This document shows positions 3,740-63,630 of a stretch of 64,000 nucleotides of DNA, one piece after another. The first letter of the stretch is position 1. Each line of letters begins with the position of its first letter. This stretch comes from Thunnus maccoyii. Its lineage: Eukaryota > Chordata > Actinopteri > Scombriformes > Scombridae. A program made the position numbers and the translations under genes. Where the stretch lies: positions 15,526,501 through 15,590,500 of the forward strand of contig NC_056540.1 in NCBI RefSeq assembly GCF_910596095.1, given 5' to 3'. The notes under the pieces are model-generated. The model was not told the origin of the DNA, did no database searches, and worked only from the letters and a program-made list of their open reading frames with translations.

Positions 3740-6700
3740 TCAGAGGAAGTTGAGTTTGTCTGAGGTATAAACATTGGCTGAGTCTGAGGGAAAGGTCATC
3801 CCCTTGAGTTCAAACTGCGGCTCAACGTCAGAGTAGACGAGGGCAGATGGAACGACTGCCTGCTGTGCTGAAGCCGCAACCTGTAGAGAAAAAGACCGAC
3901 ATGTCACTGTGTATCAGAGAATCATCAGCAAGCTCTAATTTTAATACAGATCCCACTGAATTAAGTCTAAAATACAGATAACTGTTGTTATTGTTGGTGC
4001 GACATGGAGAATATTAATGTCAAATTATTACCACAGATGTTTTGATACTGCAACCTTTAGGAAGTTTAATGTTCATTATTGCATTCTGAGGAAGACTGTG
4101 GTCTGGTTACAGTGATTACACCAAGAAATGTCAGTTTGGAAGGAACACAGATGTTGAAAATTACTATAAATTGCACTTTTATTCATCAAGTGTGTGAGTA
4201 TATGGGTGTGCATGCTCAGACTAACATGTGCAGCAAGTCATACCTCAGAATAAGAAGGTGTCACATTGTCAGTAGGATCGTGTACCTGCAGAGTGACATA
4301 ACAGTTTAATGGTGGAGAGGCAAGAGAAAAGACAGACAAAAGAACAGGAGAGGAGAGGTTCTCTCTATGCAATGCAACACACACTAACCAGCGGACCAGT
4401 CGGAGTATAAGAAGGCTGAGCGGGGTAGTGTGTCCCAGAGGGCTGACTCAATTCATCTGACCTCAGTCCAACAGGCTCATCCTGCAATTAAAATTAAACA
4501 TATATCGTCTAGAGATATTTGGTTAAAATACTGTTAATAGCAAGTCAAAAAGCTATTATGAGATATGTGGGGATATGTGCCACAGACACTCATCAATTGT
4601 CTTTTAATTGTTGAAGAAATTGTCTTAATGGAAAAACTGACATATCTTGAGACTACAATATTAACAAAATTACCACTAAAACCTCAATGAAAAACAATGA
4701 CTAACCAGCACAGTCGCCAGAATAAAATGTTGCCATTGTACATTTTTGCAAACTATGGATACGTTGAATTTTTACATTTCAATAGGCCTTTGTATCATAT
4801 CAACATTTCTACAATATGTATCATAGGGAACGAGATGTAGTTCCAATGACATCTATATCAGCTGACTTTCTTATTTAGCGGAGGCAGGTGTGGAAGTGGT
4901 TAGAAAGTTGCAAAAGCAGCAGAGAGCACTGTTTGAGAGTTTCAACCACATTTCAGCTGATGAAACCTAACATTTTACTGTAACATCCAGTCACTTGTAC
5001 CACATTTTAACCCAAACCATGATCTTTTCCTAATCTTAACCAAGTGGTTTTTTGTGCCTAAACCTAACCAGACCTTAGCCGCAGCATTGTGACAACATAA
5101 AACATAATTATTCAACTGATAACAGCCATTTAATGCCACATTGAATGACACGTGAAATGCTTAAAATGCGATCAACATTGAAACATAGAGATTCAACGTA
5201 TCTGTGGTTTGCAGACACGTACAATGCCAACGTTCTATTCTGGCAATTGACTAGTATAAACAACACACTACAGTGAAGAAATGTCAATTTGGAAGGAACA
5301 CAGATGTTGAAAAATACTATAAATTGCACTTTTATTCATCAAGTGTCTGAGTATATGTGTGTGCATGCTCAGACTAACATGTGCAGCAGGTCATACCTCA
5401 GAATAAGAAGGTGGCACATTGTCAGTAGGATCGTGTACCTGCAGAGTGACATAATAGTTTAACGGTGGAGAGGCAGGAGAAAAGACAGACAAAAGAACAG
5501 GAGAGGAGAAGTTCTCTCTATGCAATGCAACACACACTAGCCAGTGGACCAGTCGGAGTATAAGAAGGCTGAGCGGGGTAGTGTGTCCCAAAGGGCTGAC
5601 TCAATTCATCTGACCTCGGTCCAACAAGTTCACCCTGGAATTTAAATTAAACACATACAGTCCAGCGACACGATGGGAATATATTCTTTTACAGCATGAC
5701 AATGATTTTCAGCCTGACGGTATTGTACACACAAAAAAGTGTCTAGAAGCTGTAAGGCAGAACATGTCACCTCAGGTGCAGATGCAGCAGCAGCTTCAGT
5801 CTCAGAATCGTCCTCTTTGGAGGGCCTCTTCCCACAACAGCAGACGAACACGAAAGCGAGGACCGACAACACAAGCGAAAAAATGAAAATCCCAAAACCA
5901 ACATCAGAAGACTGTAGTGCTGAAACAATGAGTCGATTAAGTGATTAGTCAATTGACAGAAAATGTATCATCAACAATTAAAAGCTAAAAATAAACAAAA
6001 GGTGCTGAAAATAATGTTTGTCTTATGCCAAGGCAATAATGAAAAAACACATGTGATACTAACAATAAAACACACTTACGCTTCACTTCCAGTGACACCA
6101 CCAAGGCCTTGTTGTCATTCTGATCTCTGACCTCGAAGCGTCCACCACATGAACTTTGGAGACTCTTAATCAAAATTCCACATGGCTTTGACAGCTGAAA
6201 CCCACTGCAATAAAATGAGTCCTTCCTCTCTAGCCTGCCTTGACGAACTATCTTAGTCCCAAACCTTTTCAGTTTGAGGTCACTTTCTGGGATGAAGTAA
6301 ATGTTGCAGGAGTTCGGTTCCAGATCAAAAGTGAAGTCAAGGCTTTCTCGAGCACTCAGTTCATAGGACATTGTGTTTGCTGGAAGAGAGGATGCACAAG
6401 ACAGAAGGCATTAAAGTGATTCTCCACCCAAAACCTGTATCAAACACACATCTCCTGCAGTCTTGACTGGGGTTATAAGTTTCTAGTTTTGTTTCTCACA
6501 TAGCATGGCAGCTGTAGTCAACTTAAAGAAATTGAGATCTTGGGGTGTTTTGAGAATATTGATACCACTCTCATGTCTGTATGGTAAGTATGAGGCTAAC
6601 ATCAGTAAATAAACTTACAATTTAAGTGATGGAGGCCAAAATCCACATGCCTCCTTCTGTGCAAAATGTATTTAAAACTTTATCTGAAGCTAATATGAAG

Positions 6701-9137
6701 CTTCAGCTGTCTAAATCAAGTCAAATCAAGTAGATATCTTTCAACGTTACAGTCTTTTAAAAGCAAAGGTCCCTCTTTTCATTACTTTACTTCCACTGCA
6801 GCTCAACAGGGAAACACTGTCTGAGGAAACACAAAGAGGGAATTTAATGGTAAAAAGGCTGTAGATGTGGCAGATATCCACTTGATATGACTAAGTCAGA
6901 CTACTGAAGCTTCATATTAGCGTCAGATAAACTTTTAAATACATTGTTGCTCAGAACAAGGACTGTGGATTTTGGCCCCCATCAATTACACTGAAAGCAC
7001 ATTTGATCTTTTAATAGCCAGTATGAATAGCGAGGAAAACCTCTTTCAGTGTTCATATGGGCACCTGACTGTTATTTTAAGATGGACTTCAAAAACTGTG
7101 AACCTATCCTTTAAAACCAAAAATCCAAGAAAAGATTGACAGCCATAGTGTCAGATCCAGGAAAGGAAATGAAATAGAATGAGCATAAGAAGGATCCTCA
7201 CCTATTACCTCAAGGGTCACAGTACGCAGCAGTTTCTTATCATTGTCTCTCATTGTGTAGAGGCCACTGTCTTCCTGGGTTAAATAACTCAGCTCCAGAT
7301 ACCCCCAGTGGAGACCTATTTTCCCCTTCAGTGGCTTGTGGCCTAAGACTGAAAATGCCGCATCCCACCCCTTCTCGACATGAAGTGTCCAGAAGACTGT
7401 TGCCTTTGAGTTGCCCTTGGGGGCGAACTCTAGTGACCGAGTGTCTTCAGGTATCATCCACCTGAACGTCTTCCCATACTGTTTCTCAGCATAATGGTCA
7501 TGTGCGAGGCCTGGAGAGGAAACAGACACAAACACACACTTGAGTACAAACCTGGTGAATGTATGTTGAAGAGGAAGGACACCTGCCAGCATTCCCAGAC
7601 ATCCTTTGATCCTTTACATATTTTATTGGTGGAATGTGACATATGTGACAAAGTACATTTACTCAAATACTGTAAATACAATTTTGAGGTAAATATACTT
7701 GAGCATTTCCATTTTGTGTTACTTTATACTCCATTGCATTTCAGAGGGAAATATTCTACTTTTAATTCCACTACATTTATTTCACAGCGATAGTTATAGT
7801 TATTTTTCAGTATTCAATATCTTATATGTAAAACATATGATCAGTTCATTAAATATGGATTGTTTTAGTGAACAGAACTCCTCGTGCACCTCCAGTATTT
7901 TCAATCAGGTGCTGATCAGTCGCAGGAACATATTAGGTGAAAATCAAAATTAACCATCACACACCGAAATTATTTCACTGTGACTTTATTAGGAGTGAAT
8001 AACATGTTTCACCCGGACCTGAAGAAGCTACAGGCGGAACACGTTGTTCGCTCCTAATAAAGTCACAGTAAAGTCAATTCAGTGTGCGGTGGTTAATTAT
8101 GGATTGTTTTAGATTAGACTATTCGACAGTATAAGGTGTTTTACCTTGACAACATTAAAATGCTGTTAACATGTGCACATATATTAATCCGTTCTTATAC
8201 TCAAATAACAATAAAATCGGAAATGGACGTGACAATGAGTGACAATTGAGATGACACTGTGTCTAGGCTACGTGATGACGTTGTAAGTGGACCAGGGACT
8301 ACGTGATGACGCAGTAAATGGACCAGGGGCTACGTGATGACGCAGTAAATGGACCAGGGGTTGCCTCCTTCACTGCCTGGAGATTTGCAGAGATGTGGGC
8401 CGCGGATGACCCCTCCACAGGAAAGAACAAAAAGACAGACTCCGTCATCAAAACAGACTGTTTTCTTATTCTGACAAGTAGGCATCTACTATAGGCTGTT
8501 TATTTTTATGATGACAGCACATTGTGCTGTTGCATGTTGTGATTATTTTCTATTCAATACTGAAGTTTGCTGCGCATAGAGTTGAATTAAACAGTGAGAA
8601 TGACATGAGGTGTTGTGGCTCGTCTGGCCGAGTGGCGCTATCCACAGTGCTGAAAGGAGCGCTGGGGGGGATTTAACTCTGGCATGTTACATTTAACCTT
8701 TTGTTTTGTTCTATATGATCACATCTCCTGTGTGTCCGCATGGGGGAAGGATAAGGCGTGAACTTTACATCACATCGTTTTTATGAATATGACTGTAACA
8801 GCTGTAAGAAATAGCCTAACAGGCTTCATAGTCTACACAGGCCCACTGTGGTTATGATTTATTTTCATGAATAAAAACGTTTCATAAAGGTCCCCCTCTC
8901 TGATTTTCCTTTACAAATCGCACCCTGTATATACTAACCATACGTTTACATTACTGCAGGTACCATAAACTACTCCTGACTGAGAACCAGAGAAATACTG
9001 TTACTATTAATCCCTACAATCATTTATACACTCAGGGCAACAGGATACAGTTGTACAAGCAGTCTAAAGGCAAATTAATCATTTTCACACTCACCCAAAC
9101 AAACACAGGCACTAAGCAGCAGCAACATTATCATCAT
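3740..9137 (-). CDS. Ig-superfamily transmembrane receptor, copy A (spliced)
   Basis: Predicted type I membrane receptor of about 403 aa. Exons on the minus strand are 9095-9137 (signal peptide MMIMLLLLSACVCL), 7202-7510 (Ig1), 6080-6379 (Ig2), 5771-5919 (TM), 5542-5634 and 5397-5438 (tail module 1), 4389-4481 and 4244-4285 (tail module 2) and 3740-3880 (final exon with TGA). Every junction has AG acceptors and GT donors except one GC donor after 5542, and phases are consistent (1,1,1,0,0,0,0,0). Ig1 (aa 15-117) has FRWMIPEDTRSLEF and DSGLYTMRD but no cysteine at all. Ig2 (118-217) has four cysteines and GRFEVRDQ. The TM segment is near aa 224-246 (GIFIFSLVLSVLAFVFV), followed by CCCGKR. The tail has PPSYSE in module 1 and LVYSDV in the last exon, an ITIM match. 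Function is inferred: immune-type signalling receptor. CD2/SLAM-type domains also lack the disulfide and are an alternative relationship. The family is not identified. Confidence 0.72.
4244..5634 (-). repeat. In-frame duplication of the cytoplasmic-tail exon pair in copy A
   Basis: The pair 5542-5634 (93 nt) and 5397-5438 (42 nt) is repeated as 4389-4481 and 4244-4285. All four are phase 0, so a transcript can include both pairs without a frame change. The longer exon encodes a proline/serine/tyrosine-rich stretch ending PSYTPTGPL. The shorter begins VHDPTDN and ends PPSYSE (copy 1) or TPSYSE (copy 2). The surrounding intron sequence is duplicated too. Copies B and C have a single pair. Confidence 0.75.
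7869..8097. mobile_element. 229-bp insertion with a palindromic core and 15-bp direct repeats
   Basis: Within intron 1 of copy A, a 15-bp direct repeat (TATGGATTGTTTTAG) lies at 7854-7868 and 8098-8112, and the matching part of copy D has a single diverged version. The core at 7954-8092 is a palindrome flanked by TTAA on both sides, with arms starting CCATCACACACC and CCACCGCACACTG. Two readings are possible: a piggyBac-like MITE (TTAA) inside an older insertion, or one retroposed unit with a 15-bp target duplication. Confidence 0.55.
8268..8360. repeat. 31-bp minisatellite, three units, intron 1 of copy A
   Basis: Three tandem 31-bp units start at 8268, 8299 and 8330, each beginning CTACGTGATGACG and ending GGACCAGG. 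The same three-unit array is in copy B (23308-23400), and one diverged unit is in copy D near 57838. Each unit contains a TGACG half-site. Confidence 0.8.
8615..8690 (+). repeat. tRNA-like fragment (A-box similarity)
   Basis: The sequence TGGCCGAGTGG fits a Ser/Leu-type A box, but the downstream B box is degenerate (GATTTAACTC). It recurs at the same place in copy B (about 23675-23740). It is probably an old SINE remnant rather than a tRNA gene. Confidence 0.35.
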
Positions 9138-11138: not shown

Positions 11139-11186
<48 letters not shown>

Positions 11187-11866: not shown

Positions 11867-11867
11867 C

Positions 11868-13831: not shown

Positions 13832-16800
13832 TCAGAGGAAGTTGAGTTTGTCTGAGGTATAAACACTGGCTGAGTCTGAGGGAAAGGTCATCCCCTTCAG
13901 CTCAAACCGCGGCTCAACGTCAGAGTAGACGGGGGCAGATGGAACGACTGCCTGCTCTGCTGAAGCCACAACCTGGAGAGAAAAAGACCGACATGTCATT
14001 GTGTATCAGAGAATCACCAGCAAGCTCTAATTTTAATGCAGATCCGGCTGAATTAAGTCTGAAATACAGATAGCTGTTGTTATTGTTGGTGCAACATGGA
14101 GAATATTAATGTCAAATTATTACCACAGATGTTTTGATACTGCAACCTTTAGGAAGTTTAATGTTCATTATTACATTCTGTGATACAGTCGAGAGCTCCA
14201 GAAGAGCTACTAAATGGACTTTGTGGTGAGATTTTGTCAGCTGGTATCTCAGTGTTGACACAATTGTAAGTTATTGATTATTTTAAGAAGAACATTTAGT
14301 TTTGTTTCCTAAAAATGGCAAATGGTGGAACAACTGAGGAACCAAAGTAAAACATAACTTTAAACATTCTTCTTCTTTTACATAAAAGAAAAAATACTTC
14401 AAAACAAAAAGAGAGGCAGGGGGTGATGAGTGGCCAAATCATTGCAAAAGTGGTTTTAAAATCTGAGAGACAAAGAAGTTACATGATGTCAGATATGTTG
14501 AAGAGAGTGTGCATCATTTAAATGGTACACTCATATTTTTTGGTGTTTTGGGAAATGGTATGTAAAGTGCTGCAACTTTGTATGATACTTTATCTCTGCA
14601 ATTTCTCTGAAGAAAGTGTAACAGGAAGTAACATGTTTGGTTAAAATACTATTAATAGTAAGTCAAAAAGCTATTACAAAGTATGTGGGGAAAACAGTGC
14701 CACAGACACTGATCAATTGTCTTGTAATTGTTGAAGAAATCGTCTTAATATAAAAACTGAGACATATCTTGAGACTACAAGAAGCACAACTGGAAGGAAA
14801 ATGGAATAAAGGGCTGTTATACAACAAGACTGAGCTACAAATGAATGCATCAACAGGACATAATGAATGATGCATGTATTTCACAGTTTGTTTTGTTATT
14901 AATATTTAATGTTGGAAATATCTTGCCAAAAAAGATTGTAAAACGAAATTATCACTAAAAACTCAAGTAAAAACACCGATTAGCACAAACAACACACTGG
15001 AGAGCGACTGATCATCTCAACAAAGGTTTGGTTACAGTGATTACACCAAGATATGTCAATTTGGAAGGAACACAGATGTTGAAAAATACTATAAATTGCA
15101 CTTTTATTCATCAAGTGTCTGAGTATATGTGTGTGCATGCTCAGACTAACATGTGCAGCAGGTCATACCTCAGAATAAGAAGGTGGTGGATTGTCAGTAG
15201 GATCATGTACCTGCAGAGTGACATAACAGTTTAATGGCGGAGAGGCAGGAGAAAAGACAGACAAAAGAACAGGAGAGAAGTTCTCTCTATGCAATGCAAC
15301 ACACACTAACCAGCGGACCAGTCGGAGTATAAGAAGGCTGAGCGGGGTAGTGTGTCCCAGAGGGCTGACTCAATTCATCTGACCTCGGTCCAACAGCCTC
15401 ATACTGCAATTTAAATTAAACATATACAGTCCAGAGACACAATGGGAATACATTATGTTACAGCATGACAGTAATCTTTAACCTGACGATATTGTACACA
15501 CAAAAAAGTGTCTAGAAGCTGTAAGGCAGAACATGTCACCTCAGGTGCAGATGCAGCAGCAGCGTCAGTCTCAGAATGATCCTCTTTGCTGCAGCACTCC
15601 TCACAGCAGGACTGCAAGCAAATGCAGAAACACGCAACGAGCAAAAAAACTCCAATGCCAAAAGCAATGTGAGAAGGGTCACGATGATTTCCTAGTGCTG
15701 AAACAATGAGTTGATAAAGTGATTAATCAATGAGAAGAAAATATATCACCAACAATGAATCAATTGTGTAATTTGATTTAATCAAATGATTGATCATTTA
15801 AAAATATAAAACTACCTACCCCCTAAATGTTACATTACACATACAGAAATTACCATTAGAATGGTTTGATTAATTAATTTCAATTAATTTCAAATTGATG
15901 GACCTAGGACAAATCATAACTGGAGAGATTTGTTTAAATAATATATAACTTTATTATCAATGATATTTAAATTACTGACATAAATAATATTGTTACATAA
16001 AAAAACATGCAGGTGTGAACAAATCATTAAAATTAGGTGAATAATAGGATTATTTTCAATATTTTCAAATCAATAAAACAACTATGAAATTTCACACTGA
16101 TGTGAACAAACCAAAACAATGTAATTTCAAATCAGAGAAACAAAATTAACAATCAGGCCTAAAAAATGCCATTTAAATCGGCAAAACACATCAAATTTCC
16201 AAACAGGACTCACAGTAGAAACCTGCCTCTGTTGCATTGCTTCATTCCTCATGAGACCATTTCATAAAGTTTTCACACCACAATATGAGAACAGCTCAGT
16301 GCAGTACAGACATTCAGCATCCTCATCATTCTGGGTCTTCTTCTTCACTTCGATCCTCTTATTTTCTTGGGGCTTTTTCACAATTTTCTTGCCATTGGCC
16401 TTCTCCTCCAGATCTCTCCTGTAGGTGCGGCTGTAATCACTGCTGCTGACTCAGCCTTCCTTTTTCTGGGCCTTGCCTGCTGTAGCTTTGGCTGAGGTCA
16501 AAGTGCCAGGATGAGACTTGACATGGACAGAAAACAGCGTTGAACTTTATAAATAGCACTGTTGATAAAACATGTAGCCTCTAAAAGACGAAAGGACACT
16601 TTTGTTGTCTTGCCATGAATGGGCAGGTGGTACAACCTTGGAGGTGTGTGGAGCAGGCTGTAGGGCAGGTTCTGGATCAAGTCCTGTTCTCCAAAAATGT
16701 CCCTGTTACATGGCATAAGACCACAGGCCCTGAACCCTTTCATTCCTTTTCCCAAACTGGCAGCCTGGCGGTAAGCTTTACCAAGGACGCCAGTAATTTC

Positions 16801-19800
16801 ATAGAGGTTAATCCTCTTTCCAGGTTTTTGGTCTTCCATCAGTCGGCCACTTTCAGGCTGTTCATCTTCAGGATTCTGAAAAAGATCCTGTCGAGGGGCT
16901 GCATTTTAAGGCCGCAGTGAGGCAGTAGTGAAATCATGATTATGCCAAGATGTCTTGCCAGATTAACAGCCTCTAAGGTTTTATGTGGGTGGTTCACATC
17001 AAGTATGAGGATGTGTGGATCATTCTTGCTGGCGTTCACGTTCTTTGCAAAATGGGTGAGCCACTCCACAAATAGGTTGCCGTCGAGTCAATCTGAAACT
17101 CTTCCAACAGATCCATTCTCTTTCTCAGAAAGATAAACATCAGAGGAACAAATTGCCCTGCAGCTTTCATCGTACACAAAGCAGTGACATTAAATCCTCT
17201 CTCAGCATTCGTCATCCTCCTGACTTGTTGAGCCCCTTTTGTTGCAACCACAGACTGGGGTTTCTGGACGTTTCGGACTCCTATCTGATCCATGTTCCAC
17301 AGCTAGGTGGGAAATATGTTGTTCAGCCTCTGAAGCATGTTTTCATAAACATCAAAGAATTCACCCACTTTATTGAAGCCTACTGCCCCAGTGAGGATTC
17401 TCACATGATCACATGCTCTTGCAAAGTAAGCTGCCTCGCAGGGATTGATAGACTATGATAGACAGATGGTTCATCCAATTACCTACCAAGTATTTTTTGA
17501 AAGTGCCTGCCCTTTTCCAAACAGTTTCCAAGGACTATTTCTCCGATGGTTCTGTGTAACAAATCATCTGGCACATCAGATTACTAGGAAACAGTCTTCC
17601 CAGCAACTTTTTTGGCATCACTCAATGAGCGTTGGATCCCCATCTTTGTAGCCAAATCATAGGCCAGTTTCCGTACATCCCATGATGTTAGCCCAAAGAG
17701 AGCTCTCTCCATATGTTGGATGTGGCACACCAGATAATTTTCAAAGACTGCAGAGAACACAGCCGTTTTCCACAGACGAATATGGCCTGGCCTCTTCATC
17801 AGCTTGTCACGGTACCAACAAAGTGTTTTTGGTGGTCTGCCAAATTTCTGAGATACTGAATTCAGTGATTCGCCATCTTAAATGCATTTAAGTGCATCTT
17901 CAAGAACCTGCTTCCCATAGCTTCCTCTGTTAGTTGTCCTCATGTTGAGCCTCATCTATAATGCAACAAAAATTGACAATCTTTATTGAGAGCCCATTAT
18001 TTGTATTTGTATTTGCATAAAAGTGGAAATAGGTGTAAAAACCCTGTTTTTGTTTTTATTGCGACTCTAATTTTAGGATAAGAAAGTGCTAAAATAAATG
18101 TTTATTAATTAACTATTTTGCAAAGGAGGTCCCCTCACCGGGTCTCTGGCTCAGGTCATCCAGGCCATCGACAACTGCAGTAACTACTCAGCTAAATCTC
18201 AGCCCTGCTACACACAGAGACCTGCAGCTGTTCACACATCCATGACACACAGACAGCACAGCGGCGCAAAAGAGTCAGATGGAGACAGCGATGTAAATAT
18301 GCAAAGAATTAAAGCTAGACTACAGCAAGCTAATATTGCATATTGCCTGCTATAACATTATTCTCGTAAAAGTTAGTTAGCCTCTTAGACTGATAATGAT
18401 ACATTTCTTACTGTTGGTTAGCTATTATGTTATTGTTAGATGATGGTGTAAATACTTTCTCAGAAATCTAACATTAACGAAACTAGACTAGACCTCTTCC
18501 CTCAAAAATCCTAATCTTACACTTTCATATATTACAAAGACATATTTGTTATTTTTAAGTAATAGATCACCCTCCAGACAATTCTCATATTAACAATAAA
18601 AAAAAGTTTGATTTTGACTTATTTTGTACTGTCAAAATATTACCTCCCACAAGTGAAACGATATTAATGCTATTCAAAGATTAGCAAGACAACAACCATC
18701 CAAGAAAAGAGCTGAAATGAAAACTAGCTCCGTCTAGTGGTCATGGGGGGAATTGGGGGGTGGGGGGGGGGGGTAGTTGTGTTTGGCTTCTTACCTCTGG
18801 AGGTCATCCTTGCCTTACGTTTTACCCTACGCTTCATTTTCAGTGATGCCACCAAGGCCTTGTTGCCATTCTGATCTCTGACCTCGAAGCGTCCACCACA
18901 TGAACTTTGGAGGCTCTCAATCAAAATCCCACATGGCTTTGACAGCTGAAACCCACCGCAATTAACTTCATTCAAGTCCTTCCTCTCTAGCCTGCCTTGA
19001 CGAACTATCTCAGTCTCTAATGCTTTCAGTTTAAGGTCACTTCCTGGGAAGAAGTAAATGTTGCAGGAGTTCGGTTCCAGATCAAAAGTGAACTCAAGCC
19101 TTTCTCCAGGACTCCGTTCATAGGACCTCGTGTTTGCTGGAAAAGAGGATGCACAAGACAGAAAATATTGAAGTGATTCTCCACTCAAAATCTTTTGAAT
19201 ATCAAACACACGTCACAAAAAAAGAAGAAAGATGTCACTTCAGGATTTTAGAACTTGAAGTGGTCATTTCTCACTATTTCCTGACAATTAATCGACTTAC
19301 AAACCAAATGATTGAGAATTTAAAAACTGAGAAAACTATAAAAACCCTTGTGAAAACTTTTGAAACCACTTTGGATAAACCAAAAGCTAAAAGCAAACAA
19401 AAGAAGCTAAAAATAAGGTTTTTCTTATACCAAGGCAATAATGAAAAAACACATCTCATACTGATTATAAAACACACTTGCACTTCATTTTCAGTGACAC
19501 CACCAAGGTCGTGTTGTCACTGTGATCTCTGACCTTGAAACGTCCACCACATGAACTTTGGAGACTCTCAATCAAAATCCCACATGGCTTCGACAGCTGA
19601 AACCCAACGCATTTAACTTCATCCGAGCCCTTCCTCTCTAGCCTGCCTTGACGAACTATCTCAATCTCAAACCCTTTCAGGTTGAGGTGACTTTCTGGGA
19701 TGAAGTAAATGTTGCAGGAGTTCGGTTTCAGATCAAAAGTGAAGTCAAGGCTTTCTCGAGCACTCAGTTCATAGGACCTTGTGTTTGCTGGAAGAGAGGA

Positions 19801-48274: not shown

Positions 48275-48346
<72 letters not shown>

Positions 48347-48347
48347 C
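48253..48347 (+). repeat. Expanded (AAT)n microsatellite, LINE tail of copy D
   Basis: About 30 AAT units at the 3' end of the minus-strand LINE. The other copies have only four to ten units here. Confidence 0.85.
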
Positions 48348-50082: not shown

Positions 50083-50223
50083 TCAGAGGAAGTTGAGTTT
50101 GTCTGAGGTATAAACATTGGCTGAGTCTGAGGGAAAGGTCATCCCCTTCAGCTCAAACCGCGGCTCAACGTCAGAGTAGACGGGGGCAGATGGAACAACT
50201 GCCTGCTCTGCTGAAGCCACAAC
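50083..50223 (-). pseudogene. Orphaned last tail exon, copy D
   Basis: Equivalent to the final exon of the other copies (APVYSDV, then VYTSDKLNFL and TGA). In copy D the upstream exon now ends in a stop codon, so this exon is probably no longer translated in the main product. It is intact at sequence level. Confidence 0.6.
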
Positions 50224-50944
50224 CTGGAGAGAAAAAGACCGACATGTCATTGTGTATCAGAGAATCATCAGCAAGCTCTAATTTTAATGCAGATCCGGCT
50301 GAATTAAGTCTAAAATACAGATAACTGTTGTTATTGTTGGTGCAACATGGAGAATATTAATGTCAAATTATTACCACAGATGTTTTGATACTGCAACCTT
50401 TAGGAAGTTTAATGTTCATTATTGCATTCTGTGATACAGTCGAGAGCTCCGGAAGAGCTACTAAATGGACTTTGTGGTGAGATTTTGTCAGCTGGTATCT
50501 CAGTGTTGACACAATTGTATTTTATTGATTATTTTAAGAAGAACATATAGTTTTGTTTCCTAAAAATGGCAAATAGTGGAACAACTGAGGAACCAAAGTA
50601 AAACATAACTTAAAACATTCTTCTTCTTTTACATAAAAGAAAAAAATACTTCAAAACAAAAAGAGAAGCAGGGGGTGATGAGTGGCCAAATCATGGCAAA
50701 AGTGGTTTTAAAATCTGAGAGACAAAGAAGTTACATGATGTCAGATATGTTGAAGAAAGTGTGGATCATTTAAATGGTACACTCATATTTTTTGGTGTTT
50801 TGGGAAATGGTATGTAAAGTGTTGCAACTATGTATGATACTTTATCTCTGCAATTTCTCTGAAGAAAGTGTGTGAGTATATGTGTGTGCATGCTCAGACT
50901 AACGTGCAGCAGGTCATACCTCAGAATAAGAAGGTGGCACATCG

Positions 50945-53900
50945 TCAGTCGGATTGTGTACCTGCAGCCCCTTCAGTCTCACAATCGTCCTCTCTGGAGG
51001 AGCTCACCCCACAGCATTTCTTCAAGCAACCGCAGCAAGACGACAAAAAGAAAAAAACACCACTGGCAATAGCAGCTACAGTTTCACGGCGAAGCCCTAG
51101 TGGTGAAACAATGAGTTGATTAACTGATTAGTCAATAGTTAGAAAATGTATAATCAACAATTAATCAATGTGTAATTTGCAGCAATGTCTGAAATTGTCC
51201 CTGATTCATATCATTGTAAACTGAATTATCTTATCTTGGAAAAAAAGGAGAAAGATGTCACTTATTTATAGACTTGCAGACCAAATGATTGCTAAGAATC
51301 ATTGCTGAGAAAATGGACCTAAAAACAAACAAAAGAAGCTAAAAATAAGGTTTTTCTTATGCCAAGGCAATAATGAAAAACACATTTGGCACTGATTTTA
51401 AAATACACTTAAAATCACTCTGGAGGAGCTCTCCCCACAGCATTTCTTCAAGCAACCGCAGAAAAATGTCCCAAAGAGAGAAACAGCAGCAATAATACCA
51501 ACTGTAGTATCACCGCGAGTCCCTAGTGGTGAAACAATGAGTCGATTAATTGATTAGACGATGGTTAGAAAATGTATCATCAACAGAAATGTCTTAAATT
51601 GTCCCTGATTTATATCATTGCAAACTGAATATCTTATCTTGGACAAAAAGAAAAGATGTCACCTTACCACAATTTATAGACTTACAGACCAAATGATTGA
51701 TCATTTAAAAACTGAGAAATTATATAAACCCTTGTGAAAACTTTTGAAACCACTTTGGATAAACCAAAACCTAAAGGCAAACAACAGAAGCTAAAAATAA
51801 GGTTTTTCTTATGCAGAGCCGATAATTTAAAAAAAACACATTTGGCACTGATTTTAAAATACATTTGGGGGTAAAACGAGGTAAGACGCCCCCCTTAAGA
51901 ACAATGTCTATTTTCTTTTAAAATATATACAATCTGAATATCAATATAATATGTTGACAAGACGTATGCTTACATAAACACATTCAGAGAGTAATTAAAT
52001 CATAACAGACTACAACTTTGTTATTATAAACCTAAACTTAAAGTCTTGTAAAGGGGCATCTTACCCCACAACTCGGGGAAGATTCTCCCCCACCAGGGTA
52101 AGAACACCTGGGGGGCATCTTCCCTCATGAGTAATTTTGATATATAGACTTGGTTTTCATGCATAACATTTAACTTTATTGACATTGCTCTTACTTGAAC
52201 TGCATAATGAACTTACTTTTAATTGTGTTTAGAATGGTTTGATTATTGCCAATTAATTTCAAATTGATGGGCCTAGGACAAATCACAATTGGAGAGATTT
52301 GTTTAAATATATATAAGTTTATTATCATCAATATTTAAATTACTGACATAAATAATATTGTTACGTAAAAAAAACATGCAAGTGTGAACAAATCATTAAA
52401 ATTATGTGACTAGCAGGATTATTGTCAATATTTTCAAATCAATAAAACAACTATTAAAATTTCATTTTGATGTGAACAAACCAAAAAACTGTCATTCCAA
52501 ATCAGAGAAACAATTTAACAATCAGGCCTAAAAAACGCCATTTAAATCAGCAAAGCACAACAAAAATTAAATTTCCAAACAGGACTCACAGCAGAAACCT
52601 GCCTCTGTTGCATTGCTTCATTCCTCATGAGACCATTTCATAAAGTTTTCACACCACAATATGAGAACAGCTCAGTGCAGTACAGACAGTCAGCATCCTC
52701 ATCTTCCTGGGTCTTCTTCTTCACTTGATCTCCTTATTTTCTTGGGGCTTTTTCACAATTTTCTTGACACTTGCCTTCTCCTCCAGATCTCTCCTGTAGG
52801 TGCGGCTGTAATCACTGCTGCTGACTCAGCCTTCCTTTTTCTGAGCCTTGCCTGCTGTAGCTTTGGCTGAGGTGAAAGTGCCGGGATGAGACTTGACATG
52901 GACAGAAAACAGTGTTGAACTTTATAAATAGCACTGTTGATAAAACATGTAGCCTTTGAAATATTATAAGACACTTTGGTTGTCTTACCATGACTGGACT
53001 CTCAAGCAGCCTGGTGGGAGTAGGTGTGTGGAGCAGGCTGTAGGGCAGGTTCTGGATCAAGTCCTCTTCTCCAAAAATGTCCCTGTTACATGGCATAAGA
53101 CCACAGGCCCTGAACCCTTTCATTCCTTTTCCCAAACTGGCAGCCTGGCGGTAAGCTTTACCAAGAACGCCAGTAATTTCATAGATGTTAATCCTCTTTC
53201 CAGGTTTTTGGTCTTCCATCAGTCGGCCACTTTGCTGTAGCTCATCTTCAGGATTCTGAAAAAGATCCTGTCGAGGGGCTTCATTTTAAGGCCGCAGTGA
53301 GGCAGTAGTGAAATCATGATTATGCCAAGATGTCTTGCCAGATTAACAGCCTCTAAGGTTTTATGTGGGTGGTTCACATCAAGTATGAGGATGTGTGGAT
53401 CATTCTTGCTGGCGTTCACGTTCTTTGCAAAATGGGTGAGCCACTCCACAAATAGGTTGCCGTCGAGTCAATCTGAAACTCTTCCCACAGATCCAGGAGG
53501 TGCCCCTCTCATATGGATCTCGGTCATTCTCTTTCTCAGGAAGATAAACATCGGAGGAGCAAATGCCCTGCAGCTTTCATCGTGCACAAAGCAGTGACAT
53601 TAAATCCTCTCTTAGCGTTTGTCATCCTCCTGACTTGTTGAGCCCCTTTTGTTGCAACCACAGACTGGGTTGCTGGATGTTTTGGACTCCTATCTGATCC
53701 ATGTTCCACAACTAGGTGGGAAATATCTTGTTCAGTTTCTGAAGCATGTTTTCATAAACATCAAAATATTCACCCACTTTTACTTTATTGAAGCCTACTG
53801 CCTGGGCAAGGCTAGTGGCCTGTGGGGTGTGGACAGAAAGGCATAGATTTCTGAATGCTAAGAACCTTAACTTGTGAGCAGCTGGATTCACAAGATCATG

Positions 53901-54279: not shown

Positions 54280-54313
<34 letters not shown>

Positions 54314-57300
54314 CCACATCTGTACACAGGCTACAATTTTTCACATCACCGCGGATGCTTCGCCTACAGCGAAGAATTCAACTAGCTAGGTAGTACTACA
54401 GCAAGCTATTATTGCTAGCTATGTTATTATTGTATCATAAAGTCAGCTAGTTAGTCTCTTAGACTGATAATAATACATTTGTCTTTATGTCTTATTTATT
54501 TATTGGGACCATGTACAGTGTTAAACATAAATGTTACCCTTTGATGTACTGTACCAGAATTAGTTTATAACTAATTTTCATCTGCAATCCCTTCGGCTGG
54601 TCACAACTAAAAAATATAACAGAACAATAAAAAACAGTACAAAGCAAAAAACATACAGGATACATAATACAAAATACAAAGCTATACACAGTCACACATC
54701 ACATACAGCCACAATGTCAACTAGGAATTAAAAATGTAAGCTTGTCAAATTAAAAGCAAGATTATTTGTGTTCATGAGAAGACCATGAGAGAAAATGTAG
54801 AGTCAGTGGTTACAGAGCTGAGTAGCTTTAAAAGACTTTTTAATTTGGTTTTAAACGTACTGATGTAACTGCAGCTCTTCATATCGTCAGGTAAGGCATT
54901 CCACTGAGTTGTAGCTTTTAGAGAGAATGCTGACTGCCCAAATGCAGTGCTACGAAATGGTCTGGTATGATCTTGTATAGAGGATATTCTACAAAATCCT
55001 ACTCTTACACTTTCACATATTACAAAAAAATATTTGTTATTTTTTGTTCAAACTAATGGATCACCCTCCAGATGATTCTCATATTAACAGTAAAAAAGTT
55101 TGTCCTTTTAAAATCCCCAGAGGCTTATTTTGCACTGTAAAAATATTATATCAACTTACCTCAAAACCACTTCTTTTGATTTCCTCCCACCAGTGAAATG
55201 ATTTCGATGCTATTCAAAGATTAGCAAGGCCATTACCATCCAAGAAAAGAGCTGAAATTAAAATTAGTTCCATCTAGTGGTCATGGGGGATTTAGCAGGG
55301 GTGAGGAGTGTTTGGCTTCTTACCTTTGGTGGTCGTCTTAGGGTCTACCCTATGCTTCACTTCCAGTGATGCCACGAAGATCGTGATGTCATTCTGATCT
55401 CTGACCTCGAAGCGTCCAACACATGAACTTTGGAAGCGCTCAATCAAAATCCCACATGGCTGTGACAGCTGAAACCCACCGCAATTAACTTTATCCAAGT
55501 CCTTCCTCTCTAGCCTGCCTTGACGAACTATCTCAGTCTCAAACCCTTTCACGTTGGGGTCACTTTCTGGGATGAAGTAAATGTTGCAGGAGTCCCATGT
55601 AAGATCAAAAGTGACGCCAAGCCTTTGTCCAGGACTCAGTTCATAGGACCTTGTGTTTGCTGGAAAAGAGAATGCACAAGACAGAAGACCTTAAAGTGCT
55701 TCTCCACCCAAAACCTGTATCAAACACACTGCAGTCTTGACTGGGGTTGTAAGTTTCAAGGTTTTTTTCACATAGCATGGCAGCTTTAGTCAACTTAAAG
55801 AAATTGAGATCTTGGGGTGTTTTGAGAATATTGATACCACTCTCATGTCTGTATGGTAAGTATGAGGCTAACATCAGTAAATGCACTTACAGTGTAGGTG
55901 ATGGGGGCCAAAATCGACATGCCTCCTTCTGTGCTAAATGCATTTAAAACTTAATCTGAAGCTAACATGAAGCTTCAGCTGTCTAAATAAAGTCAAATCA
56001 AGTAGATATCTTTCAGTGTTACAGTCTTTTTAGCGCCAAAGTCCCTCCTTTTGTTACTTTACTTCCACTGCAGCTCAACAGGGAAACACTGTCTGAGGAA
56101 ACACAAAGAGGGAATTTAATGGTAAAAAGGCTGTAGATGTGGCAGATATCCACTTGATATGACTAAGTCAGACTAGTGAAGCTTCATATTAGCGTCAGAT
56201 AAACTTTTAAATACATTGTTGCTCAGAACAAGGACTGTGGATTTTCCCCCATCAATTACACTGAAAGCACATTTGAAGGGGATCTTTTAATAGCCAGTAT
56301 GAACAGGAGGAATGATTACAGCGAGGAAAACCTCTTTCAGTGTTCATATGGGCACCTGACTGTTGTTTTAGGATGGACTTGAAAAACTGTGAACTTGTCC
56401 TTTAAAACCAAAAATCCAAGAAACAATTGACAGCCATAGTGTCAGATCCAGGAAAGGAAATGAAATAGAATGAGCATAAGAAGGATCCTCACCTATTACC
56501 TCAATGGTCACATTACGCAGCAGTTTCTTATCTTTGTCTCTCATTGTGTAGAGGCCACTGTCTTCCAGGGTTAAATAACTCAGCTCGTAGTAGCAACATA
56601 TAAACCCCCAGTAGAGATCTACTATCCCCTTCAGCGGCTTGTGGTCTAAGGCTGAAAATGCCGGATCCATCCCCTTCTTGACATGACGTGTCCACAAGAC
56701 TGTCACCTCTGAGTTGCCCTTGGGGGTGAACTCTAGTGACCGAGTGTCTTCAGGCATCATCCACCTGAACATCTTCCCATACTGTTCCTCAACATAACGG
56801 CCATCTGCGAGGCCTAGAGAGGAAACAGAAACAAACACACACTTGAATACAAACCTGGTGAATGTATGTTGAAGAGGTCGGACACTTGCCAGCATTCCCA
56901 GACATCCTTTGATCCTTTACATATTTTAGTGGTGGAATGTAACATTTACTCATGTACTGTAAGTACAATTTTGAGGTAATTGTACTTTACTTTAGTATTT
57001 CCATTTTGTGTTACTTTATACTCCACTAAATTGCAGAGGTAAAAGTTGTACTTTTTACTCCATTTCATTTATTTCACAGCTGTAGATACTGGTTACTTTT
57101 CAATATTTTACATGTAAAACATATGATCAGTTCATAAAATATGGGTTGTTATAGATTAGACTATTCAACAGTATTAGGTGTTTTACCATGACAGCATAAA
57201 AATGCTGCTAACATGTAACACATATATTAATCTGTTTTAATACTCAAATAAAATATATATATATATACTTGTATGATAAACATAACACTAAATTGGGTCA

Positions 57301-58434
57301 CTTTGCATAATGAGTAGTTTTACTTTTGATACTTAAAGTACATTTTGCTGACAATACACTTACTTGAGTAAGATTTTGATTGCAGGACTTTTACTTGTAA
57401 TTGAGAATTTCTTTCATTGTGGTATTGCTATTTTTAGAGTAAAAGATCTGAAGATGCTGATATTTTTCCAGATCTTACATCCTATATATCATGTTATATA
57501 CAGTGGGTATATAAAATATATAAATGTAAAATGTAAAAGAAATCTCACAAATGTGTGAATAGGAAACAAGAAATATTTTTTCAAAAGATGCACATATCCA
57601 GTCAAAGTATATATCCCTGCCTCTGCTGAGTTATTTTATCCCCAGTGGAGAAAAAAATGTAGCCTATCCCCTTCATAATGATTTATGCTGCTTCAGAGAC
57701 CATATAAAATGTCTAAAATGGGCTATTTAGAAAATATAAAGTGCTGCAATGTGAGAACAGTCATTAGTACAAACAACAATAAAATCAGAACTGGACTTGA
57801 CCATGAGTGATAATAGAGATGACACCGAGTCTAGGCCATGTGATGATGCAGTAAATGGACCAGGGGTTGCCTCCTTTACTACTTGGAGATTTGCAGAGAT
57901 GTGTGTAAAAGAGGGGTCACACACCGCAGAAAAGCAGAAAAAGAGGATAGAGTCCGTCATCAAAGCTGTTTTCTTGTCTGACAGGTAGGCATCTACTGTA
58001 TCCTATTTATTTTTATAATGCTAAAATCAATTGCCACAATGGTACCTCCAGCCCAGAAAAAGTCCTCCCAGTCCTCCAGACATAAAGGCAAGTAGGGGGA
58101 GTGTTTGGTGGCACTGCCTGAGGTAGCAGGTGAAGTTTTGTGGCTGTCGTGCGAAAACTGACTGAACAGTAAGGCTTTGGAAAATCAAATCAGATAAAAA
58201 ATCTGCAAAGTAATGGGGCAAAAACGCAGAAAAAACATTAAGAAGGGAGAACTTGTAGTCTATGCATTTCCAAAAATGCATAGCCCTAGGCGACCGCTTT
58301 GGCCTATGCCACAGGTGTAGTCGTACAATCAGGGCACCAAGATACAGTCATACTAGCAGTTTAAGAGCGAATTAATAATTTTCACACTCACCCAAACAAA
58401 CACAGGCACTTAGCAACAGCAACACTCTCATCAT
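50945..58434 (-). CDS. Ig-superfamily transmembrane receptor, copy D (short tail)
   Basis: Exons on the minus strand are 58392-58434 (signal peptide MMRVLLLLSACVCL), 56493-56813 (Ig1), 55324-55659 (Ig2 with linker) and 50945-51096 (TM and tail, stop at 50945-50947), giving about 283 aa. Ig1 has FRWMMPEDTRSLEF and EDSGLYTMRDKDKKLL. Ig2 keeps the four cysteines and ends with a basic linker. The TM is around TVAAIASGVFFFLSSCCGCL, followed by KKCCG. A deletion has fused the TM exon to the next-but-one tail exon; the remaining tail sequence is read out of frame and stops after about 25 residues, so the PPxY and VYSDV motifs are lost. A second, copy-C-like TM exon remains at about 51415-51532, and using it also ends early. 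Likely a decoy or adaptor-dependent form, or a degenerating gene. Confidence 0.62.
51413..51535 (-). pseudogene. Second TM-exon copy in receptor D
   Basis: Nearly identical to the TM exon of copy C, but the 3' part is replaced after SSSR. The frame then runs into a stop (VILSVF then TAA) and no donor is obvious. It is part of a local duplication that also carries the adjoining intron. Confidence 0.6.
52555..54170 (-). mobile_element. Tigger/pogo DNA transposon remnant, copy D
   Basis: Same insertion as in B and C. Blocks are ILILDVNHPHK and LLPHCGLKMKPLD (53219-53449), HIQHMERSPLGLTSWDVRKL (53888-54150) and the C-terminal part (52812-53219). The stretch around the first D is disrupted by a ~25-bp insertion near 53495. 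Confidence 0.83.
54281..54312 (+). repeat. (CA)n microsatellite
   Basis: Sixteen CA units. Confidence 0.9.
54478..54995 (-). mobile_element. Probable LINE 3'-end insertion, copy D only
   Basis: Copy B lacks this block between otherwise alignable sequence. Read on the minus strand it ends in an AATAAATAAATAAG-like tail after CATGGTCCCAAT, as expected of a LINE 3' terminus. No clear RT frame remains. Confidence 0.4.
57247..57267 (+). repeat. Short (AT)n tract
   Basis: AT dinucleotide run in intron 1 of copy D. Confidence 0.7.
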
Positions 58435-59604: not shown

Positions 59605-59740
59605 AGCCACATGTTTTACACATCCACTGGGAGCAAATTTGGAGTTCAGCATCTTGCAGGAAGTGCCTGGAATCAACCCACCAGCTGATAAGATTAACAG
59701 ACAAACCTCTCCGACATGAGCTACAGCCACCCCTGAATTG
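59605..59740 (-). repeat. Second tRNA-derived SINE, minus strand
   Basis: Minus strand reads GGTGGCTGTAGCTCATGTCGG, then GGTGGGTTGATTCC (A- and B-box regions), and further on AAATTTGCTCCCAGTGG, the body of a SINE family widespread in fish. Confidence 0.55.
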
Positions 59741-60419
59741 GGTACTACTGGGTAGGTTAATTCCTCTTAAACCAAACCATAATAAACTATTATTGAGATG
59801 TTGTTTCCACTCTTTTGCAGCTTTTCTCTGGGCTTTAATACAGTCCAACGAGGCAACAAATGAAACTTTCAAAGTTCAGGAGCAAACTTCTTTTCCAAAA
59901 TTTGAAAGTCAAAGTTTAGTCACACATCTTTACACAAACATTTATACCACACATTTATGGAGTTTCTCAAAGCCAAAAGAAGAGTTTATGGAAAAAAAAC
60001 CTCCAGCTTACACAAGATCTACAAGTGTGTGAAAAGATAAACAGAGTAACAGTTTACAGTTTTACAAACAAACAAAAAAGATCACGTCATTTCTCAAAAA
60101 TCCACAGATACATTTACATATGAACCTGAAGAAACACAATAAGGGTTTGAAACAACAATATAAAAACATTATGTATAGATTAGTAAAGTCAGTAACCATG
60201 GCTTAAATTGCTGAGTGTAGTGTGTTTCTTTATATTCTATATTATAGAGATACTCTGATGAGGCACTTAACTCTTGAAACACAGCATATGTAGGAATAGA
60301 CCTAAATTGATAAACGTCTTGATGTTAGACGCCACTGCTTCACACTCAACTGCAGCCTTACAACCAACTTAAGGGATCAAGAGTTAACTGATAAAATACT
60401 ATTAATTTGGTTTTCTCTG
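59741..60419. other. Unannotated spacer
   Basis: No gene or bounded repeat recognised. Confidence 0.4.
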
Positions 60420-60922
60420 TGTTTCCCTTGTGTGTTCCTTCACTCCTCCTGTGTTCATGTACTCCTCCTCTCACCTGCCGGGCATTACCCTTGTTAGTCC
60501 TGCCCTGCTCCTAGTGTCTTCCCCAGTCTATCAGTTCCCAGTCTGCCCTTGTGTTGTGTTACTTGTTCCTTGGCTGATTACTTTAGTTCCTGTTTTATTT
60601 TGAAATGTTTTCTCCTTGTGTTTTGTTACCTTTACTTCCTGTGTTTTCCCACCTTTGTTGATTGCTTTGTGTTTCATCTGTGTCTTGTGTCACACACCTG
60701 TGTTCAGTTTGTAATCAGACCCTGTGTATTTAAGTCCTGTTCTTAGTTCAGTTTTGGTTAAGTCGTCCATGTTTCTGGTCGGTGTTCCTTGTTCCTGTGT
60801 CTCAGTATCTCCTGTGTCTCAGTCTTGTGAGTTATTCATTAAATATTCTGCATCTGATCCTGCCTGCCTGCCTGCCTGCCATCTTCTGCGTTTGGGTCCA
60901 TCTGCTCCACTCACTTCTTGAT

Positions 60923-61300
60923 ATGGACCCAGCAGAGACGGACCTGATTTCTGTTTTCCAGCCATTGATTCATCCTAATGACTCTGATGGTGAGCAAATT
61001 ATCAAGTTTTTTCAGTCTGTCCATGAGGAGGACCCTGTTCTGGCCATGAAGCTGATGGCAAGTCGCTGGGAGACTGTGGAGCATGAGGCTCCATTCTCTG
61101 TGCTCCCCAGTAGCCATCCAGCCTCCAAGCCAGCTAACCTTGGCCCTGCTAGCCCTCAGATTGCACCCTGGATGGCTTGCAACCAGCCACCCCCACAGTC
61201 AGTTAGGTGTGGGGTTGTGAGCCCGCAACCTGCCAGTCCTGAGCCAGCTCCAGCCCAAAACCCTTACCTGGGCATCTGCCTGACTCTGGGAGGCCCTTAG
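60923..61300 (+). pseudogene. gag-like N-terminal frame of the proline-rich element
   Basis: A 125-codon frame starting MDPAETDLISVFQPLIHP and containing EEDPVLAMKLMASRWETVE, then becoming Pro/Ser-rich and ending at TAG. It looks like the start of a longer protein broken by frameshifts. No known domain was recognised with confidence. Confidence 0.4.
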
Positions 61301-62394
61301 AGCACCAACCAGAATTCTGGTCGACATGGCAGACGACAAAACCTCTCATCAGGTCGCCTGCCTTGCCACCTTGCCTGTCTGGTCCAGGGCTGCTACTCCA
61401 CTCCCCAGTGCCTCAGAGTCACCGTTCTCCAGTGTCACAAAGTCTCAGTCCCTGGTTCCCAGCTTTCAGCTCATGCACCAGCCCAAGCAACCTCTTGCAC
61501 CCACTGAGCTGAAGCAACCTCTTGACCCCACTGAGCTGTAGCAACCAGCTGGGCTGCCGCAGCAATCCTGCGCCAGTCCCCTGTTCCTGAGCTGTGTCAG
61601 TCCCCTGTTCCTGAGCTGCAACCACCCTGTCCCTGTCTGCCCGAAGTCATAGAGTCCCTGGTCCTTGGGTTCCTGTTGAGCTGTTCCCTTTGCCAAGTTT
61701 GCCTGATTCCAGCTCTCCCAAGGAAGCCAATCCTCCACTTCCTGGATCCCCAGTGGTTCCACTGGCTATTGGGGATGTTGGCCCAGAAATGGCCCAGAAA
61801 TGGCCCAGAGTTGGCTATTCTCCCAGTGGCCCAGTTCTCCATGTTTCCACTGCCCAGTGCACCAGCCAACAACCTTCCAGACCTCCAGTTGGCATTCTCC
61901 GCCGACCCACAGCCAGACCTTCCAGATCTTCTAGACCTCCAGTCAGCCCTCTTCACTGACACTCAGCCAGACCTCCAGTTGGCTGTCTCTGCCAACCCAC
62001 GGCCAGACCAGCCAGATCTGCAGGTCTGCCTCTCCTGCGCCCCGACCATGTCTTCTGATGCCAGGTGCCCTTCTTGGCCTCTGGCTTTGCTGCCAGCCCT
62101 CTGCCCAGCCACCAGAGGGGCTCTGCCTTAACCGCCAGCCCCTTGCCCAGCCTTCAGAGGGGTTCCACCTTCGCCGCTGGCCTACAGAACAGAGCAGCTC
62201 CTCACATCTGGTCGCCCTCCTGAGCAACTTCTGCTGTCTGTCCTGCGTCCCAGTCGCCCTCCCGGGCAACTTCACCTGTCTATCCTGCCTCCCGGTCATC
62301 CTTCACAGCAGCTTCAGCCATTTCCCCTGCCCTCCTGTTGCCTGTTGGAGGTCCTCAGTTTTCCCTTGGTCCTGCCTTCAGGCTGCTCATCTGT

Positions 62395-62620
62395 GACTTT
62401 TACTGTGCCCCTGTTCAGGCCCCGGGCCGTTTGCCTGGGGCTCCTAGCTCTGCCTCGGTTCGGCCCACGGGCTGTCCCCCTGAACTTTCTGACTCTGCCT
62501 CTGTCCAGCCCCCAGGCCTTCCACCTGAACTCTTTTACTCTGCCCCTGTTCAGTCCCTGGGCCATTTGCCTGGGGCTCCTGGCTCCACCCCTGTCCGGCC
62601 TCAGCCACCTGCCTGTGCGC
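62395..62620 (+). repeat. 45-bp coding tandem repeat (15-aa proline-rich unit)
   Basis: Four consecutive 15-aa units in one frame, e.g. ASVRPTGCPPELSDS and ASVQPPGLPPELFYS, then a partial fifth. Confidence 0.7.
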
Positions 62621-62984
62621 CACCTTCCTGGTTCCCCATGCCCTGGCAACCTTCCTGAGCATGACCCTCTTGGTTCCCCACGCCTGCCCGAGGGTCACCT
62701 CCCTGGCTACCTGCTCATTGTCCTGGGCTATGGACTGTCAGTTCGTATCATAATAATGAGGGAAAAAGGTCTTTGAGGAAATATAAGAAATGCTCCTTTC
62801 TGTCTCAGCTGGCTGTGGGATGTGTTGGAGGCTTGTTTGACATTAGCTAGCAGGGTAGCAGTGTTACAGATTACTGAACAGAGACAAAGTAAACAAACTG
62901 CTGTAGCTACAAGTCATGGACAGACAGTGTATCACTAACAGGGATTTTAAAGAGCAATGACCAAACCAGCATCTAACTGGACCC

Positions 62985-63630
62985 TTGACTGGTCAGGGCT
63001 GAAGATGGGAGTGAACTCCAGGAATTCAGACTCTCTAGGAACATTGCGGGAGTACATATCCTTGTAAGACCTCTCCACTTCTTCAGCACACTCTAAAAAA
63101 ACACATAGAGAAAAAAACAGGGTTGAATTATTCTCTTAAGAATGCTACAAGTTTTCTGGTGGAAAACATAGTATTGCGTAATGTTCTCACCCAAAATTTT
63201 CAAGTTGATGACATCATGTTGTCTGTTGCCATCAAATGAGAGATATAGAGTTCCTTCATCTCTTTCTGTCAAATCTTAAAAGTGAGGTAGTAGAAACCCT
63301 GAGGTGTGGGTCTTTCACCTGAATAGCATGAACAACACAAATAAATGTACTCAGGACAGAGAGATAAGTTTAACATTGTCCTGATTTGAAAAGGAGCCAG
63401 GCATTTGACATGTTTCAGATCCTACCTGGCATGGATACCACAGAAATATTGGTGAAAGTTGCATCACAAGCTGCTCACCTTCCAGTTTTCCATCAGCAGC
63501 TTCTTGGATTCCCCTGTCTTACTTGGAACGAGGAACATACGTCCATCGAAAAAAGGTGGTGAATAATCAGATGGTAAGCATAAATCTCTGCCATAGCACT
63601 GCTCATAATCATGGATATTTATGGATGAAC
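62985..63630 (-). pseudogene. Fifth receptor fragment: Ig0 and part of Ig1
   Basis: Paralogous to the Ig0/Ig1 exons of copy C. Ig0a is 63479-63630 (open, with DYEQCYGRDLCLPSDYS and GRMFLVPSKTGES). Ig0b is 63191-63318 but is 128 nt against 133 in copy C, so the frame is broken and a TGA appears. Ig1 starts at 63092 (CAEEVERSYKDMYSRNVPRE) and loses similarity at about 62985. Splice sites are conserved. The rest of the gene is beyond the window or deleted, so this is a pseudogene fragment or the broken end of another copy. Confidence 0.65.

Follow-up and report, generated by a model that had tools for sequence, protein, structure and literature searches.

A tandem cluster of an unnamed fish family of immunoglobulin-superfamily membrane receptors in Thunnus maccoyii

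Clustered receptor genes of the immunoglobulin (Ig) superfamily have been described in fishes under several names. In the definition given in PMC2442602, NITRs carry a joining-like motif, FGXGTXLX(V/L), after the V or I domain, and the I domain has six conserved cysteines. NILTs, in the account of PMC3022915, have canonical cysteines and a CX3C motif, and are encoded by Ig exons of phase 1 and tail exons of phase 0. Outside the Ig superfamily, the PPxY motif of CYYR1 is reported to bind NEDD4-family ligases, with lysosomal routing (PMC11399591), and P(S/T)AP and PPxY are described as recruiters of the endosomal sorting complex required for transport (ESCRT) and of NEDD4, respectively (PMC6874086, PMC2958808). 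Here we analyze a stretch of 64,000 nucleotides of Thunnus maccoyii (C8 15526501-15590500; hereafter the window). It is near certain that the window belongs to a tandem cluster of an unnamed fish family of type I membrane receptors of the Ig superfamily.

Four paralogous genes lie on the minus strand of the window, A (9137-3740), B (24193-13832), C (45326-34942) and D (58434-50945), together with a broken fragment, E. Their exons encode a signal peptide, Ig-like domains (D1 to D3), a transmembrane (TM) segment and a tail (T1 to T3). In the models of A-D the frame is kept across every junction, and 24 of the 26 introns are of the GT-AG class, the other two having a GC donor (A after T1, B after D3a). 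The Ig exons are of phase 1-1 and the tail exons of phase 0, and D1 of gene C is halved by a phase-0 intron. The blocks of the window are segmental repeats of one another (about 71-99% identity in the rows of a self-comparison), tblastn of 11 exon sequences against the window found nothing on the plus strand at E<0.01, and 207 matching proteins were collected from fishes. The array is therefore not due to chance, and the four tandem receptor genes proposed in an earlier reading of the letters (hereafter the sequence-only reading) were confirmed. The same reading gave each gene a different number of Ig domains. The counts in the rebuilt genes A-D, however, are 2, 2, 4 and 2; it is the composition that varies, being D2-D3 in A and D, D3-D3 in B and D1-D2-D3-D3 in C. 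The fifth fragment it had noticed is present as E, reduced within the window to D1a, D1b with a frameshift, and a D2 that breaks off early. Its claim of a different tail in each gene held in part: A, B and C share closely similar T1-T3 exons, but A has an extra T1/T2 pair, and the TM exon of D ends at a stop, with T2 and T3 left as orphans.

The window is the middle part of one cluster (C8, approximately 15.429-15.617 Mb), and the array extends beyond both of its ends. Exon mapping over 264 kb found 11 gene copies and E: the type II copies G1, G2, G3, G4, A, B, C and D, the type I copies F and G, and a divergent copy, H. Profiles of type I and type II align over 334 columns (E 4.8e-76).

Structure prediction, which the sequence-only reading had recommended, gave V-type Ig domains, and pIgR was the top Foldseek match for both models; the Ig fold is thus present in the predicted structures. 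The canonical F-strand cysteine of the B-F disulphide, which is usual but not obligatory for the Ig superfamily, was found at only 3 of 394 pattern sites in the 207 proteins. Four cysteines are conserved in type II D3 (pattern in 59/72; invariant in the A2 alignment), whereas type I D3 has no invariant cysteine. None of six window exons reached any family cut-off in Pfam, and a single-query sequence search of the PDB gave no match. Profile searches of the PDB returned generic Ig proteins only (best E 3.9e-6, titin). Across the structure and profile comparisons, the generic matches included the adhesion-type proteins contactins, titin, Robo, JAM and CEACAM. Antibody V domains and one domain took up the VIA lists, so that the absence of a family from them is uninformative. 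Nearly all relatives among the matches listed are "uncharacterized" or "hypothetical"; the exceptions are P0187 ("Glutamate 5-kinase") and, under its UniRef name, P0032 ("Cadherin domain-containing"). These results agree with the earlier view of an unassigned fish Ig family lacking the hallmarks of the known ones, and no strong match to a non-immune family, which would have spoken against that view, appeared in the Pfam and profile searches.

The family resembles NITRs in its tandem fish clusters, its type I Ig-superfamily receptors, its leader, Ig, TM and tail exons and its tail tyrosines. Unlike NITRs, it has no joining motif (FG.GT.[LV] in 0/207 relatives; the looser FG.G in 7/207), no six-cysteine I domain and no canonical cysteine. 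It shares with NILTs the clustered fish genes, V-type Ig exons of phase 1 and tail exons of phase 0, but not the canonical cysteines, and CX3C, found within the first 60% of the protein in 16/207, is not a family feature. Because of the F-strand cysteine and joining-motif counts, we file the family under neither name. Like receptors of the pIgR/CD300 type it has tandem V-type Ig domains; however, identity is about 15%, the canonical disulphide of V domains is missing and the tail is different. The resemblance, which is one of predicted structures, likely reflects the common fold only. The family differs from CD2/SLAM in that the immunoreceptor tyrosine-based switch motif (ITSM, T.Y..[VI]) occurs in only 14/207 and that at least three successive domains are free of the disulphide. 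With Shisa-like, WBP1L and CYYR1 adaptors the family has in common a cysteine-rich juxtamembrane segment and a proline-rich tail with PPxY. These adaptors are not known to carry Ig domains; the fish family has an Ig-like extracellular part in place of the six-cysteine domain of Shisa-like proteins (STMC6), and no sequence relation to the adaptors emerged from this analysis. No DICP, LITR, MDIR, SITR or CEACAM-like fish family name occurred among the matches listed, in searches that did not compare sequences of their members.

The ratio of nonsynonymous to synonymous substitution (dN/dS) was 0.88 for D3 (13 copies, 78 pairs), 0.93 for type II D2 (6 copies, 15 pairs) and 0.90 for type I D2 (3 pairs). 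For the tail exons it was 0.71 (T1) and 0.60 (T3; 8 copies, 28 pairs each). The ectodomain is nearly free to change, and the tail less so. In the pair A-D the intron between D2 and D3 is 95.0% identical, against 90.0 and 87.4% for the exons. Over 15 pairs of six genes, however, flanking DNA had diverged further than the exons (mean K 0.18-0.26, as compared with a dN of 0.11-0.12), and dN exceeded flanking K in only 3/15 pairs for D2 and 2/15 for D3. The pattern in A-D is therefore best read as local gene conversion. The earlier reading spoke of a fast-evolving pattern; positive selection on the Ig exons is not supported, since their dN/dS values remain below 1.

The conserved part of the protein is the tail, which is predicted to be disordered and follows a TM segment and a cysteine cluster (CC...CC in 177/207). 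The C-terminal motif VYxSDKLNFx occurs in 166/207 relatives, PPxY in 100, P[ST]AP in 79, a strict immunoreceptor tyrosine-based inhibitory motif (ITIM) in 87 and the activation motif (ITAM) pattern in 3; K or R is found in 12 of 161 TM cores. When the tails of the 166 complete proteins were compared with shuffled ones, both types showed an excess of PPxY and P[ST]AP, and FEL[KR] was far above the shuffles. Together with VYxSDKLNFx, this excess suggests that receptor turnover may be controlled by ubiquitin and ESCRT.

We propose that these proteins are recognition receptors whose tail output is controlled by trafficking, and put the probability of this explanation as a whole at roughly one half. 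The Ig domains would bind a cell-surface or pathogen ligand, and the juxtamembrane cysteines may be palmitoylated. PPxY would recruit NEDD4-family ubiquitin ligases and P(S/T)AP would recruit TSG101/ESCRT-I, while the C-terminal FELKG...VYTSDKLNFL block would dock a putative partner. Ligand binding would then lead to endocytosis and lysosomal sorting, with uptake, surface removal or silencing of a co-clustered receptor as the outcome. Duplication and exon exchange, as in gene C, would vary the ectodomain while the tail is kept. An immune role is somewhat more likely than not, and the read-out of the tail through NEDD4 and ESCRT rather less likely than not. More specific, and on the doubtful side, is the view of a second strategy among fish receptor clusters, a ligand-triggered uptake or surface-clearance family confined to spiny-rayed fishes and lying between TMEM109 and PRPF19, which would combine diversified, disulphide-free Ig domains with a ubiquitin/ESCRT tail and a C-terminal docking motif instead of an ITIM or ITAM.

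Most farmed marine species are spiny-rayed fishes, and in many fishes of this group the family occurs, although it has neither a name nor a dedicated Pfam model. Should its role be immune, it would represent an overlooked recognition system. Its three to four successive Ig domains dispense with the canonical disulphide, and its conserved tail yields a concrete prediction, binding of a ubiquitin ligase and ESCRT.

Several observations weigh against the proposed explanation. Shuffles ignore shared descent, and the motif excess therefore reflects conservation of order, not function. Strict ITIMs are also about twofold above shuffles (43/120 against 22.3; 14/46 against 7.5). PPxY is missing from half of the relatives. 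Tuna type II copies no longer have P(S/T)AP at the position where it is conserved, and within the window FPSAPPL has there become FPSDSA. The type I genes F and G keep FPSAPPL; B and C have PSAP elsewhere and A has none. The C-terminal motif is absent from D and G3, which are either tail-less forms or decaying copies. The dN/dS near 0.9 would also fit relaxed constraint.

The alternative that survives best, though we consider it unlikely, is that these are inhibitory innate receptors, NITR- or NILT-like in function, which signal by tail tyrosines (YSEV, YSDV, ITIM-like), the proline-rich motifs being secondary. The excess of strict ITIMs, LVYSDV in gene A, the rarity of K/R in TM cores and the exon phases, which match those given for NILTs in PMC3022915, would all be expected. 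Strict ITIMs are nevertheless missing from more than half of the relatives, and in B and C a proline at the -2 position breaks the strict pattern. Moreover, VYxSDKLNFx, the most conserved element of the tail, is not an ITIM, and ITSM and ITAM patterns are rare.

It is less probable still that the genes encode adhesion or epithelial proteins without an immune role, serving at junctions or in gamete recognition, which were duplicated in tandem by happenstance. The generic matches to contactins, titin and the like would agree with such a role, but no adhesion family gave a strong profile match, titin at E 3.9e-6 being the best. A copy composition that varies, a chimera such as gene C, damage to some copies and Ig exons that evolve almost neutrally are features more usual in immune or recognition families. 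A mostly decaying array with one or few functional copies, as B without most of D2, the broken tail of D, the frameshifted and truncated E, the stop in T3 of G3, G2 without a TM match, dN/dS near 0.9 and a public model of C without signal peptide and TM might suggest, is very improbable, since A, B and C hold open frames over 7-10 exons each and the Thunnus albacares proteins of C and A are 96.8% (405 aa) and 85% (403 columns) identical.

The relatives came from three protein searches, with gene C (64 proteins), a profile built from 16 proteins of type I (190, of which the best 120 are among the matches listed) and the tail of P0026 (89). All three scored best candidates only, so that other fishes or other vertebrates may also have relatives. 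The organisms named among the matches listed are ray-finned fishes throughout (lineage looked up for Myripristis murdjan and Thunnus maccoyii), all of which we recognise as spiny-rayed. Since Myripristis has both a three-Ig member (P0136) and a two-Ig member (P0205), the two architectures probably date to the base of the spiny-rayed fishes. No paper on the family was found in the open-access literature, and 12 locus names searched as text gave none either, with supplements and subscription papers outside the search.

For 22 relatives the source label is "lgn", presumably that of Logan read assemblies, and their contigs span 1,327-3,086 bases. The C-terminal motif is present in 19/22, and at least 70% of the contig is coding in 9/22, e.g. 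P0033, where a contig of 1,748 bases encodes 496 aa; 8/22 passed a strict test (start, signal-like N-terminus, TM, C-terminal motif). In the tuna type I genes F and G the same product is spread over approximately 3.5 and 4.3 kb. The best account of whole coding sequences in one open reading frame (ORF) on such short contigs is that they are spliced transcripts from the relatives; it has no bearing on tissue or on the tuna copies themselves. The sequence-only reading would have been refuted by a lack of splicing; in the relatives, splicing is indicated.

The model of gene C (552 aa) runs signal peptide-D1 (two exons)-D2-D3a-D3b-TM-T1-T2-T3. Features here and below are from the models unless another source is given.

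45284-45326, minus: signal-peptide exon; junction to D1a inferred, no counterpart in public orthologue model
42027-42163, minus: D1 first half (type I)
41730-41862, minus: D1 second half
41358-41630, minus: Ig-like domain D2 (type I)
40669-40974, minus: Ig-like domain D3a (type II)
39902-40243, minus: Ig-like domain D3b and stalk (type II)
36649-36797, minus: TM exon; junction inferred, no counterpart in public orthologue model
36436-36528, minus: tail exon T1
36291-36332, minus: tail exon T2 (PPSY; also motif scan)
34942-35082, minus: tail exon T3 with stop

Gene C is chimeric: type I D1-D2, of which D2 is 83-85% identical to D2 of F and G, is joined to type II D3 domains, TM and tail. Since the T. 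albacares protein P0001 shows the same combination, this is not an assembly error. Against the model, P0001 starts inside a modelled intron, without the type II signal peptide, and stops after D3b, without TM or tail. The 96.8% identity given above is that to T. albacares LOC122991108. D3 exons of the cluster are 100% identical over 102 aa to the T. maccoyii proteins P0004 and P0015. An inverted repeat in the first intron of C (43635-45233; arms 78% alike over about 560 bases) is probably a transposon.

Gene A (403 aa) runs signal peptide-D2-D3-TM-T1-T2-T1b-T2b-T3.

9095-9137, minus: signal-peptide exon (also tblastn)
7202-7510, minus: Ig-like domain D2 (type II)
6080-6379, minus: Ig-like domain D3 (type II, cysteine-bearing)
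5771-5919, minus: TM exon, juxtamembrane CCC
5542-5634, minus: tail exon T1 (GC donor)
5397-5438, minus: tail exon T2 (PPSY motif; also motif scan)
4389-4481, minus: second T1 copy; not in T. albacares isoform P0005
4244-4285, minus: second T2 copy (also comparison with T. albacares)
3740-3880, minus: last tail exon T3 with stop (LVYSDV, FELKG, VYTSDKLNFL)

Isoform P0005 agrees with the order signal peptide-D2-D3-TM-T1-T2-T3 but has only one T1/T2 pair. The first introns of A (8266-8360) and B (23306-23400) contain a 31-base minisatellite of 3.1 copies, in a 2.1 kb block that is 87% alike between the two genes.

Gene B (374 aa) runs signal peptide-D3a-D3b-TM-T1-T2-T3. The 5' part of its D2 is gone, and the remainder has an in-frame stop.

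24151-24193, minus: signal-peptide exon
21762-21851, minus: D2 remnant with in-frame stop, outside the model (tblastn)
19482-19787, minus: Ig-like domain D3a (GC donor)
18795-19136, minus: Ig-like domain D3b and stalk
15540-15697, minus: TM exon
15311-15403, minus: tail exon T1
15169-15210, minus: tail exon T2 (PPSY; also motif scan)
13832-13972, minus: tail exon T3 with stop

Gene D (283 aa) runs signal peptide-D2-D3-TM and then stops. Its TM exon is duplicated, and the second copy passes straight into out-of-frame T2-like sequence and a stop. Relative to gene C, D1b of E is five bases short ahead of a common TTGACAG, which shifts the frame.

58392-58434, minus: D signal-peptide exon
56493-56813, minus: D Ig-like domain D2 (type II)
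55324-55659, minus: D Ig-like domain D3 and stalk
51419-51526, minus: D first TM exon copy, cut off (tblastn)
50945-51096, minus: D second TM exon, running into stop
50920-50961, minus: D orphan T2; the TM exon as read is in another frame (tblastn)
50086-50223, minus: D orphan T3 (tblastn)
63479-63625, minus: E D1a (type I; tblastn)
63189-63272, minus: E D1b, match only past the frameshift (tblastn)
62980-63093, minus: E truncated D2 (type I; tblastn)

A possible signal-peptide exon for E was mapped at C8 15596397-15596438. In the same exon mapping G2 gave no TM match, and G3 has a stop codon within T3 (C8 15472091-15472228), ahead of the conserved C-terminal motif. Whole-genome searches found at least 13 matches for D3 and at least 8 for D2, all on C8 15.43-15.61 Mb; only best candidates were scored, so that these counts are lower bounds. 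The cluster is flanked on the left by a gene of the BRI3BP/TMEM109 family (PF14965, E 1.3e-36) and on the right by prpf19 (U-box E 4.3e-7; Prp19 WD40 fragment E 8e-30, a partial piece and hence under the whole-protein cut-off). TMEM109 and PRPF19 are adjacent in the human genome. Gene H lies on the plus strand at C8 approximately 15611013-15617153 (L022:513-6653), adjoining prpf19. It has a split D1 and the C-terminal end VYTSEKLNHL, and is a candidate for the ancestral member of the family.

The window also contains a reverse-transcriptase ORF (29356-29892; PF00078, E 8.9e-26) and a DDE_1 transposase ORF (16839-17087; PF03184, E 1e-6), and transposon-type blocks of both kinds are repeated between the genes. 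Between gene D and fragment E, at 60734-62776, there are long proline-rich ORFs with internal tandem repeats.
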